From the NCBI GenBank assembly GCA_905250025.1, contig CAJNOJ010000047.1, positions 186,001-250,000 on the forward strand: DNA of 64,000 nt. The letters run 5' to 3'. Shown in pieces: positions 44,424 through 53,197 of this stretch. The notes below the pieces were generated by a model that was not told the DNA's origin, ran no database searches, and saw only the letters and a list, made by a program, of their open reading frames with translations. A program made the position numbers and the translations under genes. Within the stretch, counting starts at the first letter, position 1. The number at the start of each line of letters is the position of its first letter. This stretch comes from Adineta ricciae. Lineage: Eukaryota > Rotifera > Eurotatoria > Adinetida > Adinetidae.

Positions 44424-46100
44424 CTAAGAACCGTATGAATCGTTATCTTCTAAAATCATATCAGCAGCTTTAAACCCGATGATCATTGTGATTTGGTTCG
44501 GGTTTCCAGATATCAATGTTGGCATGATCGAAGCATCGGCAATTCGTAAGTTTTCTGTGTTACGCACTCGAAGTCGATTGTCGACGACGATCATGTTATC
44601 GTCATCGAAGTCATTGCCCATTGTACACGTACTCGATGGATGCAAACCGGTCTCTATGTTCTTTCTCGCCCATTCGATTAATTTATTATCATTGTTTATG
44701 TCATATGTCGGAGAGATGGCTCTTCTTTTATTTGTGGTCAGCTTACTGAGTATTTTAGTAGATAAAAATGATTGGGCGACTTTAATAGAATTTAAGATTT
44801 TGTCTATATCATAGGAATTCGATAGATAGTTCGGATCTATGACAGGCTTTGAGAGCGGATTGTTATTTAATAAAGTAACACTTCCACGAGATTGATAATG
44901 AAATGTTTCAATGAAGATTTGAATAGCTTTGACATTATTCACCTGTCCTACACCTAAAACATGGTAATATTCACCGTTTTCTTCAATTGCAACTGCGCCC
45001 CATGCCCCACCCAAAACGTGATTTGGTAATGTCGTATTTTGATCAACTAATGGCGCTGACCACATCTGTAGAATAGTATGCTCTTGAAAATTCTTTCCAA
45101 CACCCGGCACATTGGATAAACACTTTATATCATGTTTTTCTAACTCATCACACGGTCCAATACCGCTTAATAGCAATAATTTTGGTGTATCAAACACTCC
45201 AGCGGATAGTATCACCTCTTTTTTACTGTAAAAGTAAGTTTCGTCTTTTTTCCCAAGGTTGTATGTTTGCACACCAATAGCTTTTAAATCTTTATCGAAT
45301 AGTATTTTGTGGACTTGTGTAAATACCAGAATATCGAGATTTCTGCGTGGTAGGATTGGTTGTACATAAGCATTCCAACTACTAACTCGTTCTGCGTAAT
45401 TATTCGAGAGTTTTTTAGCCATGTAAATTCTCGGTGCTACTCCTCCTTGTCCTTGTTCGGAATCTAAATCATTTGGATTTGGATTGTACTTATAACCGAC
45501 TTCCTCGGCACTTTGTAATAATTCGCTCATGATCGAATCATTTCGATCTAATTGTGTATGTGGAAATGTTGCATTGATATAATTCCAATAGGGCGCGATA
45601 TCGTCCCATGACCATCCATCGATTTGTCCCCAACGTTCATCGAAATCTTTACGATTACCCAGTAGGAATATCATTGCATTGATACTGTTACTTCCACCTG
45701 TACCTTGCCCTCTAGGTTGTGGTATAGTACGATTTTTCAGTTCGGGTTGTGGAACTGATACGTAGCCTAATTCCACAAGTGGGTCGGATAACAAGGAATA
45801 CCATTTCGATGCTTCTTGGATATTGGGATTCAATGATGACCAATAGCCTTGTTCAATCAATAAGACTTTGTTGTTTGGATCATCTGAAAGTTTTCGTGCT
45901 AGAATACTACCAGCCGTTCCCGAACCAACGATTATATAATCATAACAATTCCCGATAGATGCATCCAAGCATCGCTTGTGCCTTATTCTATGCAGGTGAT
46001 GATTGCTATTGTAATTATTGTGGTAGTAGGTAAGTGTTTCTACAGAGATGAAACCAAATAAGATTGTAAGTCGCAGAAAGTTATATTTTGCGCTATTCAT
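44424..46100 (-). CDS. Secreted GMC-family FAD oxidoreductase (choline/glucose dehydrogenase-like), intronless
   Basis: One uninterrupted frame of 558 residues. A signal peptide-like N-terminus (about 1-22) and a His/Asn-rich linker precede Y-D-Y-I-I-V-G-S-G-T-A-G-S (about 53-65), the FAD Rossmann motif. The first GMC signature (P-R-G-Q-G-T-G-G-S-N-S-I-N-A-M) and the second (G-V-F-D-T-P-K-L-L-L-L-S-G-I-G-P) follow. The C-terminus holds the catalytic His (H-P-S-S-T-C-T-M-G) and the Asn of N-P-N-Q with the closing D-A-S-I-M-P block. It should oxidise an alcohol or sugar, passing electrons to oxygen or an acceptor; the substrate is unknown. It has no intron, while nearly all its neighbours are cut every 100-300 bases, which suggests retrotransposition or horizontal transfer. 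Insect-type GMC enzymes are an alternative origin. Confidence 0.93.
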   Translation of the reverse strand: MNSAKYNFLRLTILFGFISVETLTYYHNNYNSNHHLHRIRHKRCLDASIGNCYDYIIVGSGTAGSILARKLSDDPNNKVLLIEQGYWSSLNPNIQEASKWYSLLSDPLVELGYVSVPQPELKNRTIPQPRGQGTGGSNSINAMIFLLGNRKDFDERWGQIDGWSWDDIAPYWNYINATFPHTQLDRNDSIMSELLQSAEEVGYKYNPNPNDLDSEQGQGGVAPRIYMAKKLSNNYAERVSSWNAYVQPILPRRNLDILVFTQVHKILFDKDLKAIGVQTYNLGKKDETYFYSKKEVILSAGVFDTPKLLLLSGIGPCDELEKHDIKCLSNVPGVGKNFQEHTILQMWSAPLVDQNTTLPNHVLGGAWGAVAIEENGEYYHVLGVGQVNNVKAIQIFIETFHYQSRGSVTLLNNNPLSKPVIDPNYLSNSYDIDKILNSIKVAQSFLSTKILSKLTTNKRRAISPTYDINNDNKLIEWARKNIETGLHPSSTCTMGNDFDDDNMIVVDNRLRVRNTENLRIADASIMPTLISGNPNQITMIIGFKAADMILEDNDSYGS

Positions 46101-47229
46101 TTAATACGATTGAAAATCTGAAATACAGAAACAGGTACTAGAATAAACTCGATGTTTTTCTTTGTATCAATGTGAATCCATTTAAAATGTACACATACGT
46201 CAAAATCAATCTAGAAATTTCATTAAATTACAAAAAGAAAACAAACATTTACAACTTATTTTAGCATATGAATTACTTGGCTTTCGATGGTTTTCGTATT
46301 AGTATTTATATCATGAAGATATACTACAGTTCTAAATACAAATTGGAACAATCCCATGATGTACGATAGACAACAGTGGTGCTCTGGGAACTATTTCACT
46401 CTGTGGGATGACTCATTTCCCCACAAATAGTATTTTTGAGGTAATACTTCAATGTCTCTTCCAACAAAGGATTGATAGAACGAAGGAAATTGATAGAAAT
46501 GAGTATCCACATAAGTCTTGATATTCATGAGCTGCACGAGTATTCTTTCATCATGACATACGGTAAAGTATTGAAGTATGCGATCGTCTGTGCTTCCAGC
46601 TATCTTACAATTCATTTCAATTAACAAGCAGTAAATATCAGGCGTGTACTGTTAATCCCAACTATTTACAGTACTGTCACTTTACAATTGTTGTGGTTAG
46701 ATTTGATTTTTCTTGGATCATGAATTCACAATAAGAAACCCATAGCTATATAAAATTGAACGATTATTCAAAATTAGGAATTGGCAAAGGTTTCTGGAGG
46801 CATTTTGTGGTTGGGAAAGTTTTTGTCTGCACTGTCATTTGGTAGAATAGTTTTCATTGGAACAAAGAAGCTCGAAAAGATCTATTCGCTTCTTTAGAAC
46901 GTAACAAATACTTCAGTTGCATAGGCTTCGTTAGTGTAAGATCCAATTTCACATTGTTTACATGTGCATAACAAACAAATACGGTGATAAAAATTAAGAT
47001 GAAATGTAATTCAGCAAGAAATATTTCAAATCTAGTGAATTTAGGGACGCGAAAGTGTCCAGAAGAATCGGTGACACTGATTCACACTCGTTCTTCCAAG
47101 TTCAAAATCGTTCTGATTCAAATTAAGATTCACAGCAACTAGGATTGAATAGGGAAAATGATTACGTTTATTTAGAATTCATGATAAAACAATAAAGGGT
47201 GAATAAGAATAGGTCGGAATGTGTACGGA
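46101..47229. other. Intergenic region with one doubtful small frame
   Basis: Mostly non-coding. The minus-strand frame at 46391-46627 (listed separately) is the only part with a protein-like look. Confidence 0.45.
46391..46627 (-). CDS. Doubtful small frame, possible gene fragment
   Basis: A 78-codon frame; the Met at codon 5 may be the true start. Its composition is balanced, with C-H-D-E-R-I, K-T-Y-V-D-T-H-F-Y, G-R-D-I and Y-Y-L-W-G-N-E, and looks more like a piece of a folded enzyme than random translation. No domain is recognised, there are no splice sites that clearly extend it, and no signal peptide. It could be a remnant of a larger gene. Confidence 0.25.
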   Translation of the reverse strand: MLIEMNCKIAGSTDDRILQYFTVCHDERILVQLMNIKTYVDTHFYQFPSFYQSFVGRDIEVLPQKYYLWGNESSHRVK

Positions 47230-47451
47230 TTACTTTCCGAATGGAAAGCAGACCCAATGATTACTTCCAGCTCGACAGTAAGTATCCATTTTAGCCCACC
47301 AAGGACAATGACAGTGACCACCCCGTTCTCCTCCGTGTTGACAATTACAAGCACCCCACGTGAAATGACCATCATGTCTAGCAGCAACATTTGTGATTGC
47401 TATGATCATAACCAAGAGCATCAATACAACGGTCAGTTTCGTTTTGTTCAT
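47230..47451 (-). CDS. Small secreted Cys/His/Trp-rich peptide, family member A
   Basis: A single-exon frame of 73 residues with a clear signal peptide (about 1-24, ending A-A-R-H). The mature part of about 49 residues has C-N-C, then H-G-G-E-R-G-G-H-C-H-C-P-W-W, and two further Cys near the end. The C-[NH]-C ... H-C-H-C-P core is shared with the gene at 48900 and the decayed copy at 49660, so the three form one family. I know of no named family with this pattern. The high His, Cys and Trp content suggests metal binding or membrane-active (antimicrobial) roles, but that is inference. Confidence 0.68.
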   Translation of the reverse strand: MNKTKLTVVLMLLVMIIAITNVAARHDGHFTWGACNCQHGGERGGHCHCPWWAKMDTYCRAGSNHWVCFPFGK

Positions 47452-48899
47452 TGTGATAGTAGCGAAGGCTAAATACTAAAAGTAGAAAATGTGCAGAACT
47501 ATTTATCAGATTTGTTGGTCATATACAAAGATCTTGTTTTCTTTTCTATTTTGACTCCTCGCTACTCTATCGACTGCATTGACTTCTTGTCTCAAAGCAG
47601 ATAGTTAGAAGCTATAGTTTTCCACTTTGAAAGAGCTATTCCATAGTTCAAACTAGACTACTTGTACCCTGTGTAGGTCTGGGAAAGTGAAAATGTTTCA
47701 GTCTTCCATATCAAATAGATAGAAGTGTTCGAATCTTATGAATTATAATGTGTGACAACAAATATGACACGCACGTTAAACTTGACTTTCTTGGAAAAAG
47801 CTAAACGTATCTACACAACTTTTGCTTGCGAGTCAGTGCGAATGAACGAAAAAAAACATATGCGAATAAGATAAATAGCCACTGATTCGTATCATATCTT
47901 TATTTTTCACACTCTCAAAACAAAAGCACTGAATCTAACAAGTTTTTCAAGATAATGTGAATTACCTACCTTTCAAATGTATAAACTGTGTTTGTATACA
48001 TTCATGGAGTACCAGCTTTTATAGATGTCGGTGTACCAGCCATTGGCTTGGCGATGGATAGATGGGAGAAAAAAACAAAGAATATACTGGGAGAGAAACT
48101 ATCGATGGAAAAAGAAAAACTTATGGCATTGTATCTATGGTATGTTGAAAAAGTCCCACATAGCTAGTATTTCTCATCCTGTTCGATATGACAGTATTTG
48201 TGTTGATGTGGGTAGTCCCACTAAGAGAATTTCCCTTTCTTTTTCGGTCGTTTGGTAAATGTTGAGCGTACGATTATTGCTTGCTAGTCCACACCTTCAG
48301 ACCGAAATAACGAACTGTTGAGCATATTTAAACCATTCGCTTCAAACAGATACTAACAATAATGCTTTTAAATAACTTCTCAAAGGATTTGTTAATTGTG
48401 TCGAATTATTTTGAACTCGAATCAAAAGGGCCAAGTGAATCAATTGACTTTGAAAAGTGTTATCGTAGTTTTTGCTGGTTGAAAAAAAATCGAATACTTC
48501 TTTTGCCCTGTCTATCATTCATTTTTTCGTCTGTACAGTTTGATACGTCTATATTTCTTCTGTTTAGGATATTAGTATATACACAATGAAATAAACAGAC
48601 TCATATTCCTATTTCTATCGACTATCGTTGCCATCGTTGATGAACTGATCAGCTTACACCTTCGCACATACCTAGCTACTCTCTAAATACTGAAATTGAA
48701 CCAATGAAGTTTATCCGAGAAAAGAGACTCGTAGAATAATATTTAAATAATAAAATTAAGAAGGTAGGCTCTCATCATCCAGCTATTTCGTTTCTTTTTA
48801 TTAGTTATATGTATGTATTAGTATATAATATGTAAGAAATCCACTTTTCTTTAATTATCGAGATTAATGACAAGAATTTATTCAAGTTGACTATATGAT
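47452..48899. other. Spacer within the peptide cluster
   Basis: About 1.45 kb without a convincing gene. A Trp/Arg/Lys-rich frame at 48025-48258 (+) lacks a signal peptide and cysteine pattern and is not called. Confidence 0.4.
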
Positions 48900-49181
48900 T
48901 CACCGTCTTCGCCACCATTTAGGTGGACCACGGCCATCAAGATAGTAAATATGATGATTTTTTTCCCATGGTCTCTCCCATTGCTTCTCTCTATAACTGG
49001 GCCAGTGTATACCGAGAGGACAGTGACAATGATGATCACCAGACCAGGAGGAACTTGTATCACAATGACAACCACGACCTGCTGGCCAATGACTATGATG
49101 TTGTCCATCAATCATGTCCGTCATTGAAAGGAGTACAACGCCGATGAGTATGAATGCGATCACCAAATTGATGTTCTTCAT
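48900..49181 (-). CDS. Small secreted Cys/His/Trp-rich peptide, family member B
   Basis: A single-exon frame of 93 residues. The signal peptide (about 1-26) ends in D-G-Q and leads into H-H-S-H-W-P. The core G-C-H-C-D ... G-D-H-H-C-H-C-P matches member A. A long Trp-rich basic tail follows (W-P-S-Y-R-E-K-Q-W-E-R-P-W and a final W-W-R-R-R). The mature peptide has only four Cys, all in the two C-H-C pairs, plus many His and Trp. The paralogue at 49660 on the opposite strand carries the same signal and core with stops. Function unknown; secretion and a metal-binding or membrane-active role are inferences. Confidence 0.72.
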   Translation of the reverse strand: MKNINLVIAFILIGVVLLSMTDMIDGQHHSHWPAGRGCHCDTSSSWSGDHHCHCPLGIHWPSYREKQWERPWEKNHHIYYLDGRGPPKWWRRR

Positions 49182-49659
49182 TTTCTTCTTAGAATAGGAA
49201 TGAATAAAATTTATTTCAGAATGTGACTAACTCACCGATGAGAAGAACGAATTACGAAAGAAGCAATAGTGAAATACACGAGATTGAAGGTGTTGGAAAA
49301 AGACCATACGTGATCCAGAGGGAAATAGATATTATCGATAAGAAAAGAATGATATATAACACCGCGTGTAAATTTAGGGAAAAGTTCAACATAAATAAGT
49401 TTACTGTATTCTTGTAACACGATATGTAACAGTCTTCATCTCGTGTTTTACCAACATAGAATGTATGTTGCATCATTTATCTTTTCTCATCAAAAATATC
49501 TATTTTGGGTTCACCTGTGCTTTTCCCGACATACCTGTTATCAAGGGAAACGTCATCAAGTTTGGTTCTATCAGAAGGGCCAGCTTTATTTATGTAAACA
49601 ATCATTTTCGCTTCACATTTTGAAATGAATTGCATCGATTTTGATCATAGTAAGAAGAT

Positions 49660-49880
49660 GAAGAGCATCAATTTAGTTAATGCATTTATGCTGATCGGCG
49701 TAGTTCTTATTTCAATGATGAGCATGGTCAACGGATGACCTCACAACCATCATTGGCCGACGCCTGATGGCTGTCATTGTGACACCAGCTGAACCTGGTC
49801 AGGTAATTATCATTGTCACTGTTCTATCGGTACACGCTGGCCAGAGACTTATAGAGAGAAGCAGTGGGAGAGAACATGGG
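49660..49880 (+). pseudogene. Decayed inverted paralogue of the secreted Cys/His/Trp-rich peptide
   Basis: From ATG at 49660 the plus strand aligns codon by codon with member B (about three quarters identical at DNA level by eye). It keeps the signal peptide, the H-W-P start, the C-H-C-D and C-H-C-S core and the Y-R-E-K-Q-W-E-R motif. Three in-frame stops break it: TGA right after the signal peptide, TGA between the two C-H-C pairs, and TAG before the tail. No GT..AG pair would remove them. It lies about 480 bases from member B in opposite orientation, so it arose by inverted duplication and then lost coding capacity. Confidence 0.75.
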
Positions 49881-50137
49881 AAAAAAATCATTAGAAGTCA
49901 ACTGGCTGAAAACATAAGCCTTTCCGGTTTGTTTTTAGGTCTTTTGTCTTTCCTTTTTATATTTCAATCAATTATCAAAAATATACAAATAAGCAGAGAA
50001 AAAAAGAATTCTTGTTTATGATATTCATTTTGTTTATCATTGATTAATATACATAAAAACACTGGAATTGTACTAATTGGTTCAATAAACAGAAGATAGT
50101 AATTGTAGAACATTGCATTGAATTCTCACATTGACTA

Positions 50138-50371
50138 TCACGAATTTTCCAAAACGTTTGTTTTGCGCGCAACTTCAGTTAACGTTGCGCCTCGTCGATG
50201 ACGTCTTATTCTGTAATAACAAGTGCAGTAAGCTCCTTTTTGAACTCCAGTCATGAAACCCCGTCCTAAACAAAGTTGTTCACAGTAACTAGCTTCAGCT
50301 CGATCAGGCATGAAAACTAGGAATGTTGAAAGAATTACAAGAACAATGAATACGGTCCTTAAGTTGAACAT
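50138..50371 (-). CDS. Secreted CSalphabeta/defensin-like peptide
   Basis: A single-exon frame of 77 residues with a signal peptide (about 1-27, ending E-A-S). The mature part begins Y-C-E-Q-L-C-L-G-R-G and continues to K-G-A-Y-C-T-C-Y-Y-R, followed by a strongly basic R-I-R-R-H-R-R-G stretch. C-x3-C with a later G-x-x-C-x-C is the core of the cysteine-stabilised alpha-beta fold of defensins, but one disulfide pair of the usual three is missing. The basic tail suits an antimicrobial peptide. This is a structural guess from spacing, not a family match. Confidence 0.6.
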   Translation of the reverse strand: MFNLRTVFIVLVILSTFLVFMPDRAEASYCEQLCLGRGFMTGVQKGAYCTCYYRIRRHRRGATLTEVARKTNVLENS

Positions 50372-51937: not shown

Positions 51938-53197
51938 ATGAACACCCTTGGAAATCTTGATTTTTTTGAAAATGCAACATTTTATCCATTAATGACGCCA
52001 AGAGATGATAATAATCCGTTCATTATTATCTTATCCATTCTTTTATTCATTGTTCTGTTAATTGGTTTAGTTGGAAATGTTCTCGTTATCTATGTTGTCT
52101 TGAATTATGGACGATTAAAAACAGTGACCAATACGTATTTACTACACCTTGCACTATCAGATCTGATCTTTTTGAGTGGTGCACCATTTTTCGTCTCTTC
52201 GATTATCACACGTTCGTGGATATTTGGTCGTCTAGCGTGTAAAATCTTCTTTTTAACTCAAGGTGTTAATCAATACACATCAATTATCATCTTAGCACTC
52301 TTATCCTTCGATCGATTTCTTGCTGTTTGTTATTCAGCTAAATCAATCGTATGGCGTTCGCGTGTCAATCCGAATGTACTTCTAATCTTTGTATGGATCT
52401 TGTCTTTTCTCTTAATGTTACCAATTATTATCTTCACATCATTACAACGTGAAACCAGTTCATCATCATCGACTTCTTCATCTGATGTTCAATGTACAAT
52501 CATTTTACCGTTCTCTCATTCACGCGTTCTCTATGTTATTTTCGTTGCTCATACAGCAACTATAGCATATTTCATTCCATTACTATTAATGATTTACTTT
52601 CATATACGAATTGTTCATCGTTTGCAATATCGCATTCCTAAACAACATCGCCGCTCGCGAACATCGATGCGTACGCGACGTCGAGTAACGATCTTAGTTC
52701 TAAGCGTCATAACTGTACATTTACTTTGCTGTTCACCGTACTGGGCATTTCAAATGTTTATGACCATCGAATTGTTGCCGCAAAATAGTTCATACCTTTT
52801 TCCAGCATCGAGTATAGGACAATTTTTATTATTTGTGAATTCATCAACAAATCCAATCTTATACGCGTTTATTAGCGAAATCTTTCGTACAAGTTTCCAA
52901 CGAGTTTTTTCGTGTTTATCCGCAGATCAAAGACAATTGATGCAAGACAAAACGATGATGCATCAGAGTATGATTGGTGCGGCAGATCGAATCAATTATC
53001 TTCAATCGCGAACGAAAACAACTACAAGAATTTTGATTAACGATCAAATTCAAAGCCATCAAATCGATTATCAACGTCTATCAATTTCAAACAAACCGTC
53101 GGTCAACAATTTAATCACGAGAGAAATTCGACTTTCTTCTCTAGCACCGACAGCATCGATTTTCGTCTCAGAGACATCTGTCGTTTCAGACGTTTAA
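51938..53197 (+). CDS. Somatostatin/allatostatin-C receptor-like GPCR, intronless
   Basis: One frame of 419 residues with seven hydrophobic segments. The N-terminus has an N-x-T site. TM1 has G-L-V-G-N-V-L, TM2 L-A-L-S-D-L, TM3 the motif G-V-N-Q-Y-T-S-I, close to the G-I-N-Q-F-T-S-I of somatostatin and AstC receptors, and ends D-R-F instead of D-R-Y. ECL2 carries a Ser-rich insert and Cys. TM6 has C-C-S-P-Y-W and TM7 N-S-S-T-N-P-I-L-Y-A-F. A long Ser/Thr-rich tail follows. It probably binds a somatostatin-like or allatostatin-C-like peptide and signals through Gi/o. The lack of introns is common in GPCRs and need not mean transfer. Confidence 0.88.
   Translation: MNTLGNLDFFENATFYPLMTPRDDNNPFIIILSILLFIVLLIGLVGNVLVIYVVLNYGRLKTVTNTYLLHLALSDLIFLSGAPFFVSSIITRSWIFGRLACKIFFLTQGVNQYTSIIILALLSFDRFLAVCYSAKSIVWRSRVNPNVLLIFVWILSFLLMLPIIIFTSLQRETSSSSSTSSSDVQCTIILPFSHSRVLYVIFVAHTATIAYFIPLLLMIYFHIRIVHRLQYRIPKQHRRSRTSMRTRRRVTILVLSVITVHLLCCSPYWAFQMFMTIELLPQNSSYLFPASSIGQFLLFVNSSTNPILYAFISEIFRTSFQRVFSCLSADQRQLMQDKTMMHQSMIGAADRINYLQSRTKTTTRILINDQIQSHQIDYQRLSISNKPSVNNLITREIRLSSLAPTASIFVSETSVVSDV

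Follow-up and report, generated by a model that had tools for sequence, protein, structure and literature searches.

Do two short intact open reading frames lying close together with a broken third one encode a genuine family of secreted peptides, and what might such peptides do? The loci (Table 1) lie in a window of 64,000 nucleotides, corresponding to bases 186001-250000 of contig C47 within a 130-Mb assembly. A first-pass annotation, made from the letters alone, had placed three homologous loci here and described their products as rich in Cys, His and Trp. Both intact frames exist, the third is a broken copy of gene B, the coordinates given for them were right within two bases, and the composition of the peptides was likewise borne out. 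The N-termini of A1 and B are hydrophobic, with 12-residue Kyte-Doolittle maxima of 3.59 and 3.48, respectively, in agreement with the secretion-type start that had been claimed. An in-frame stop precedes the ATG by 27 nt in A1 and 48 nt in B, and each gene is followed by a poly-A signal, a motif that, when 60-nt stretches of the window were sampled, was present in 210 of 2440. Both genes appear to be single-exon, as judged from open frames only. The third locus, with 75% DNA identity to B over 279 columns, 68% protein identity and two TGA and one TAG as internal stops, is by its sequence clearly a relative of B.

Table 1. Features of the cluster, its surroundings and related loci (positions are those of the window unless a locus name is given).
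Feature	Position	Strand	Description and basis
Gene A1	47230..47451	-	Intact ORF; 73-aa precursor, putatively secreted; six core Cys; relatives in own genome and databases
A1 putative signal-peptide part, residues 1-24	47380..47451	-	Hydrophobic stretch; model helix 3-23, low-pLDDT block 21-30 behind the helix; cleavage set by eye
A1 core domain, C35-F71	47239..47349	-	Predicted CxC/CxC hairpin and C59/C68 hairpin, then G-K (possible amidation signal); alignments and models
AATAAA poly-A signal of A1	47167..47172	-	58 nt past the A1 stop
Gene B	48900..49181	-	Intact ORF; 93-aa precursor, putatively secreted; first four core Cys, without C59 and C68; two relatives, P0027 and P0028
AATAAA poly-A signal of B	48877..48882	-	18 nt past the B stop
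Decayed inverted copy of B	49658..49894	+	Three in-frame stops; DNA alignment 210/279
Neighbour peptide, 77 aa, non-member	50138..50371	-	ORF; putatively secreted, CxxxC...CxC (defensin-like by pattern only)
GMC oxidoreductase gene	44424-46100	-
Rhodopsin-type GPCR gene	51938-53197	+
90-aa precursor near A2	L050:7788-8060 (C280); L051:7174-7446 (C430)		Putatively secreted; inhibitor-cystine-knot Cys pattern
Caspase-domain (Peptidase_C14) gene	L053:3292-4461 (C404)		In two frames
Tc5-type transposase piece	L053:8500-9174 (C404)

In the two homologous gene pairs compared, synonymous changes outnumbered replacements by 5 to 1 in one and by 6 to 1 in the other (pooled Fisher p 1e-6 with site counts rounded). 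Between two paralogues, dN and dS amounted to 0.041 and 0.73 in the core, 0.31 and 1.42 in the signal part, and 0.22 and 0.72 in the tail. Synonymous changes per site therefore far exceed replacements, which argues that the genes are functional and that the core evolves slowly rather than fast. Contrary to the rapid evolution proposed at first, the core is, on these substitution counts, under strong purifying selection: copies come and go and the core is held. We consider it almost certain that the family is real and functional.

The turnover of copies, in turn, was corroborated, two of the eight genomic loci being decayed. A search of the genome with A1 revealed at least five further loci, intact on C280, C430, C641 and C404 and interrupted by two stops on C293; the search with B returned only itself and the decayed copy among the matches listed, which is a lower bound. 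Searches with the database relatives P0016, P0024 and P0025 led to the same A loci, P0024 also reaching B (E 5e-5), and none further was listed. The C280 and C430 copies constitute a close pair, 91% identical across 3.2 kb, and distant copies are found too, such as those of the GPCR gene of the window, 72% identical to C2 and C5. The presence of close copy pairs together with such distant copies points to a bdelloid genome.

The published rotifer spliced leader, as given in a table of PMC3795323, had no exact match in the genome. When up to three mismatches were allowed, 46 matches were obtained, 41 of them identical with a T for G at the first base and no other change, and the backward control yielded 0; the genome is accordingly that of a rotifer. 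These spliced-leader copies mostly form inverted pairs about 153 bases apart (contigs C6, C8, C43, C77, C79, C99 and C146). The TGTGGG telomere repeat gave 38 matches in the genome, its backward control being the same repeat.

Database searches extended the family well beyond this genome. A profile of the five own A peptides retrieved 26 proteins at E <= 10, 25 of them at E <= 1.2e-9, which rules out a chance motif; a second profile, built from 16 sequences, retrieved 46, and the relatives come to 48 proteins in all. The species assigned among them are the springtails Orchesella dallaii, Folsomia candida and Orchesella cincta (the protein of the last being cut short) and the sciarid fly, or fungus gnat, Pseudolycoriella hygida, so that the family is not lineage-specific, as the first-pass annotation had supposed. 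The search with B returned two relatives, P0027 and P0028, 88% and 60% identical. The family core reads CxCQxGGERGGHCHCP...CRxGGNHWICFPF, and its identity between rotifer and springtails is 55-68%; over 38 core columns, A1 shares 26 identical positions with Orchesella and 21 with Folsomia, and A3 shares 25 and 26. Both A1 and B display the features by which the family was delimited, i.e. a putatively secreted product with CxC[QD], followed 9 residues on in A and 11 in B by another CxC, usually as HCHC. Pattern matches in 134 stretches of the genome_contigs set and 57 of the viral_contigs set, none of which was confirmed, led us to reject a prokaryotic or viral origin.

No significant match to a Pfam family was obtained. 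A1 and B matched zero Pfam-A families even at E 10, and the 43 members of the A6 set matched nine at E 0.1 (best 0.00085), 33 of the 43 having been checked by bits and all lying below the gathering cut-off; the rows known by E-value alone are CD20 (two members, best E 0.01) and FeThRed_B (one member, E 0.04). The weak rows Myticin-prepro, Fungus-induced and FeoB_associated are below cut-off, with matched stretches that start in the signal part. Likewise, the springtail members P0020 and P0037 have no Pfam family above cut-off, and NCBIfam has none for the seven proteins given. Four core strings and three record names had no verbatim match in open-licence PMC main texts. On the evidence of Pfam (A1 and B), NCBIfam (seven proteins) and those main texts (core strings), the family appears indeed to be undescribed, as had been proposed. 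A family that keeps 55-68% core identity between rotifer and springtails and yet has no name represents a real gap, small secreted peptides being poorly annotated.

Whether A1 and B belong together is less immediate than the relationship of B with its decayed copy. Profile comparison of A with B (hhalign) gave a probability of 96.8% over 42 columns, the signal peptide being in part among them, and BLASTP of B against P0019, which is of the A type but has neither C59 nor C68, gave 24/82 identities (E 2e-7 for that single comparison). We regard it as very unlikely that A and B are two unrelated small Cys-rich families that are neighbours by chance. That possibility draws on the absence of real DNA similarity between A1 and B, the best match being an 11-base inverted one, and on the fact that the shared part is mainly CxC...HCHCP, with a profile alignment that is partly signal peptide; it is opposed by the hhalign result and by P0019 and P0024, which act as bridges between the two types. 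B thus appears to be a remote member of the family of A1, a link that is weaker than that with the decayed copy but holds, and the homology first claimed for the three loci stands in this graded form. Within the family, B is by its residues an outlying member, lacking Q38, the GGER turn, C59 and C68.

The pattern of gain and loss of cysteines was analysed in a set of 52 rows, comprising 48 database proteins and four own peptides, with the near-duplicate C430 and C404 peptides uncounted. Cysteines were counted in 44 of these, five rows without the full core and three that are cut short making up the eight left out. Their number is even (4, 6, 8 or 10) in 41 of the 44 and odd in P0014, P0017 and P0034; the rows are related to one another and hence not independent, so that p-values on them overstate independence. 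Wherever an extra Cys occupies position 39, as in peptides of O. dallaii, Folsomia and the gnat, a tail Cys stands alongside (10 of 10 rows); without it, a tail Cys is found in 3 of 34 rows, two of which also carry an extra Cys ahead of the core. Furthermore, C59 and C68 are jointly absent from P0019 and all three B-type peptides, and C68 is lost singly in P0034. The even number and the paired gain and loss argue for disulfides, since metal-thiolate ligands need not be even.

Two AlphaFold models, like the conservation counts below, were based on 38 rows (A1 and 37 of the 48 database proteins), B-type, cut-short and degraded rows being left out. The precursor was modelled at pLDDT 87.7, with block means of 92-96 across residues 31-70 and strands at 29-32, 35-39, 45-49, 59-61 and 66-68. 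The mature part alone, modelled at 87.9 with block means of 79-94, showed matching strands and no helix of four residues or more. If the strands pair symmetrically, their positions would place the cysteines in the register C35-C49, C37-C47 and C59-C68, and a disulfide-bonded double hairpin is probable. Sequences of solved structures had no significant match; fold searches returned mostly MutS rows, none of them significant, for the whole precursor, nothing among viral structures and nothing significant for the mature part, although a novel fold does not follow from this lack of matches. A secretion-type start combined with aromatic and disulfide-rich content would also suit a structural or surface peptide, such as one of the mucus, the integument or the egg coat, in place of a soluble effector, an option to which we assign little probability given that the peptide is one small domain without repeats and that some rows carry basic processing sites.

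Besides the cysteines, several residues are nearly invariant. In the 38 rows, Q38 and G45 are found in all 38, E42, H46 and H48 in 37 each and H65 in 36, and where 37 rows were scored, F69 is kept in 37, P70 in 36 and H29 in 35. With four His, one Gln and one Glu packed into so few residues, the domain looks more like the carrier of a metal site, or of some other specific site, than like a plain membrane-active peptide. The domain net charge in 46 rows is 0 to +3 in 38, below 0 in six and above +3 in two, and a plain cationic membrane-active peptide, an idea in line with the earlier suggestion of membrane activity, fits these values less well. Metal binding by the peptides appears possible from the four near-invariant His. 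The same His with Q38 and E42, the HxH inside strand 45-49 and the nine His across a 56-residue stretch of B could also be read as those of a secreted peptide that scavenges or delivers zinc or copper and plays no direct part in immunity. We consider this unlikely, as the Cys are most probably paired and so would not be ligands, and as P0046 lacks two of the His. In P0046 the six Cys are kept and F and R replace H46 and H48, indicating that these His are dispensable for the fold, and perhaps for function in some members. In P0008, P0009, P0010 and P0016, a mature chain delimited by eye could start with H-x-H, and such a start might bind copper at the N-terminus.

Gly followed by Lys or Arg stands directly behind CFP[FWY] in 9 of 52 rows, and a polybasic run is found in 10 of 52, the latter being a minority that counts against the reading preferred below. 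Such Gly-basic and polybasic sites behind the fixed CFPF end of some rows, together with the strong conservation of the core, raise the alternative of a signalling peptide, namely a hormone or neuropeptide with disulfide bonds, processed and in part amidated, that would act through a receptor; the rhodopsin-type GPCR gene starting 2.0 kb beyond the decayed copy might also speak for it. This alternative strikes us as rather improbable: copies of the family decay and multiply, the amidation signal occurs in just those nine rows, and no family member is among the matches listed for C2 and C5, the contigs that bear the related copies of the GPCR gene, so that the neighbourhood is not kept.

Other putative secreted peptides were found beside members of the family. 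A knottin-like 90-aa precursor with a C..C..CC..C..C pattern lies downstream of the family gene on C280 (2.6 kb) and C430 (2.0 kb), and its C280 version narrowly passes the cut-off of Pfam Conotoxin (26.0 bits, cut-off 25.1) and aligns weakly to a chain named Toxin Ado1 (E 0.4). In the window, the peptide adjoining the decayed B copy has two Cys pairs, aligns weakly to Defensin-1 6bi5 (E 0.88) and has one match in the genome, itself. With the same filter, the genes on C641 and C404 have no such peptide neighbour within their 9.9-kb stretches. The neighbouring secreted peptides, present at two places, make us lean tentatively toward a defence role. A GMC oxidoreductase gene flanks the cluster in the window, the GPCR gene standing on the other flank; on C404, the caspase-domain gene and the Tc5-type transposase piece are separated from A3 by 0.4 kb and about 3.4 kb, respectively.

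Gene reality, the secretion-type start, selection, the family and the Cys pairing pattern are supported. The reading of function that we prefer, tentatively and at a little under an even chance, is that of a secreted host-defence effector against microbes whose His set binds zinc or copper; here we infer the defence and metal parts, and take the fold and register from models. The secreted mini-proteins specified by the genes would measure about 45-50 residues; removal of the signal peptide would be followed, in some members, by a cut at a basic site, with C-terminal amidation possible. The peptide would fold into two short beta-hairpins, the first with its CxC pairs opposed (C35-C49 and C37-C47) and the second with C59 opposite C68, leaving H46, H48, Q38, H65 and H29 as a conserved set, and it would act as an extracellular antimicrobial effector whose activity would depend on the binding of zinc or copper by the His set. 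Taken separately, a role in host defence has roughly even odds, and metal-dependent activity has odds somewhat below even. Defence peptides often diversify, whereas the core of this family is conserved, and both this conservation and the low domain net charge count against the defence reading. A study of the bdelloid response to fungi, with live and irradiated Rotiferophthora spores in its design, focused on horizontally acquired genes, metazoan ones not being closely explored by its own account (PMC11258130), and the rotifers' own peptide effectors could be directly tested in such data.

The phylogeny of the family, built on 47 columns with 12 of the 52 rows left out, leaves 22 of 37 inner branches open. 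One branch (78/91) can part the ten position-39-Cys rows from the own rows, in a tree that includes column 39 itself and with 27 rows uncounted. These sequences leave the tree silent on whether transfer occurred. Damp soil is the habitat of bdelloid rotifers, springtails and fungus gnats. A far-reaching scenario, which we deem distinctly unlikely, would see in the family a new fold around a metal-binding His cluster on a double cystine hairpin, forming a defence arsenal common to these unrelated small animals, and would explain its patchy spread, at 55-68% core identity across phyla, by horizontal transfer between animals and not by descent. Spread by transfer between animals, if true, would be a rare case.

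Several known systems invite comparison. Metallothioneins are cytosolic, lack aromatic residues and use Cys as metal ligands, and were rejected on the signal-type N-terminus, the conserved W, F and Y and the even Cys number (41 of 44 rows) of the family. CS-alpha-beta defensins are secreted and have three disulfides, with a CxxxC helix motif joined to a CxC strand. The family resembles them in secretion and in its three predicted disulfides, but the A1 core has no CxxxC, the mature model has no helix of four residues or more, and A1 and B have no Pfam match. Springtail secreted peptides are also represented by the five collembolan antimicrobial families, namely diapausin, Alo, diptericin, defensin and cecropin, and the present family falls outside these five, as listed in the abstract of PMC10051947. 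The Hairpin Loop Peptides (PMC13357843) share with it the precursor size (about 85 aa), six Cys and a patchy spread that includes Folsomia, Orchesella dallaii and rotifers; they differ in having two helices, mirror-image Cys, a mature chain starting with GP and at most one or two charges, whereas our family has predicted beta strands and a CxC...CxC...C...C spacing, and it was not placed among them. The Ibp metal-binding proteins are likewise secreted and found in Folsomia, but their Venus-flytrap fold (PMC6813330) excludes them.

The predicted strand positions and the paired gain and loss of Cys agree with cross-strand disulfides. In the protegrin pattern, CxC faces CxC in an antiparallel hairpin. 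The beta-hairpin antimicrobial peptides of this type, as described in PMC13001179, constitute a class of single hairpins of 11-25 residues with cross-strand disulfides. Our family resembles them in its CxC opposite CxC in a predicted antiparallel hairpin, in being small and secreted, and in the possible amidation of some members, and departs from them in length, C35-F71 alone comprising 37 residues, as well as in its two predicted hairpins, its low charge and its conserved His set.
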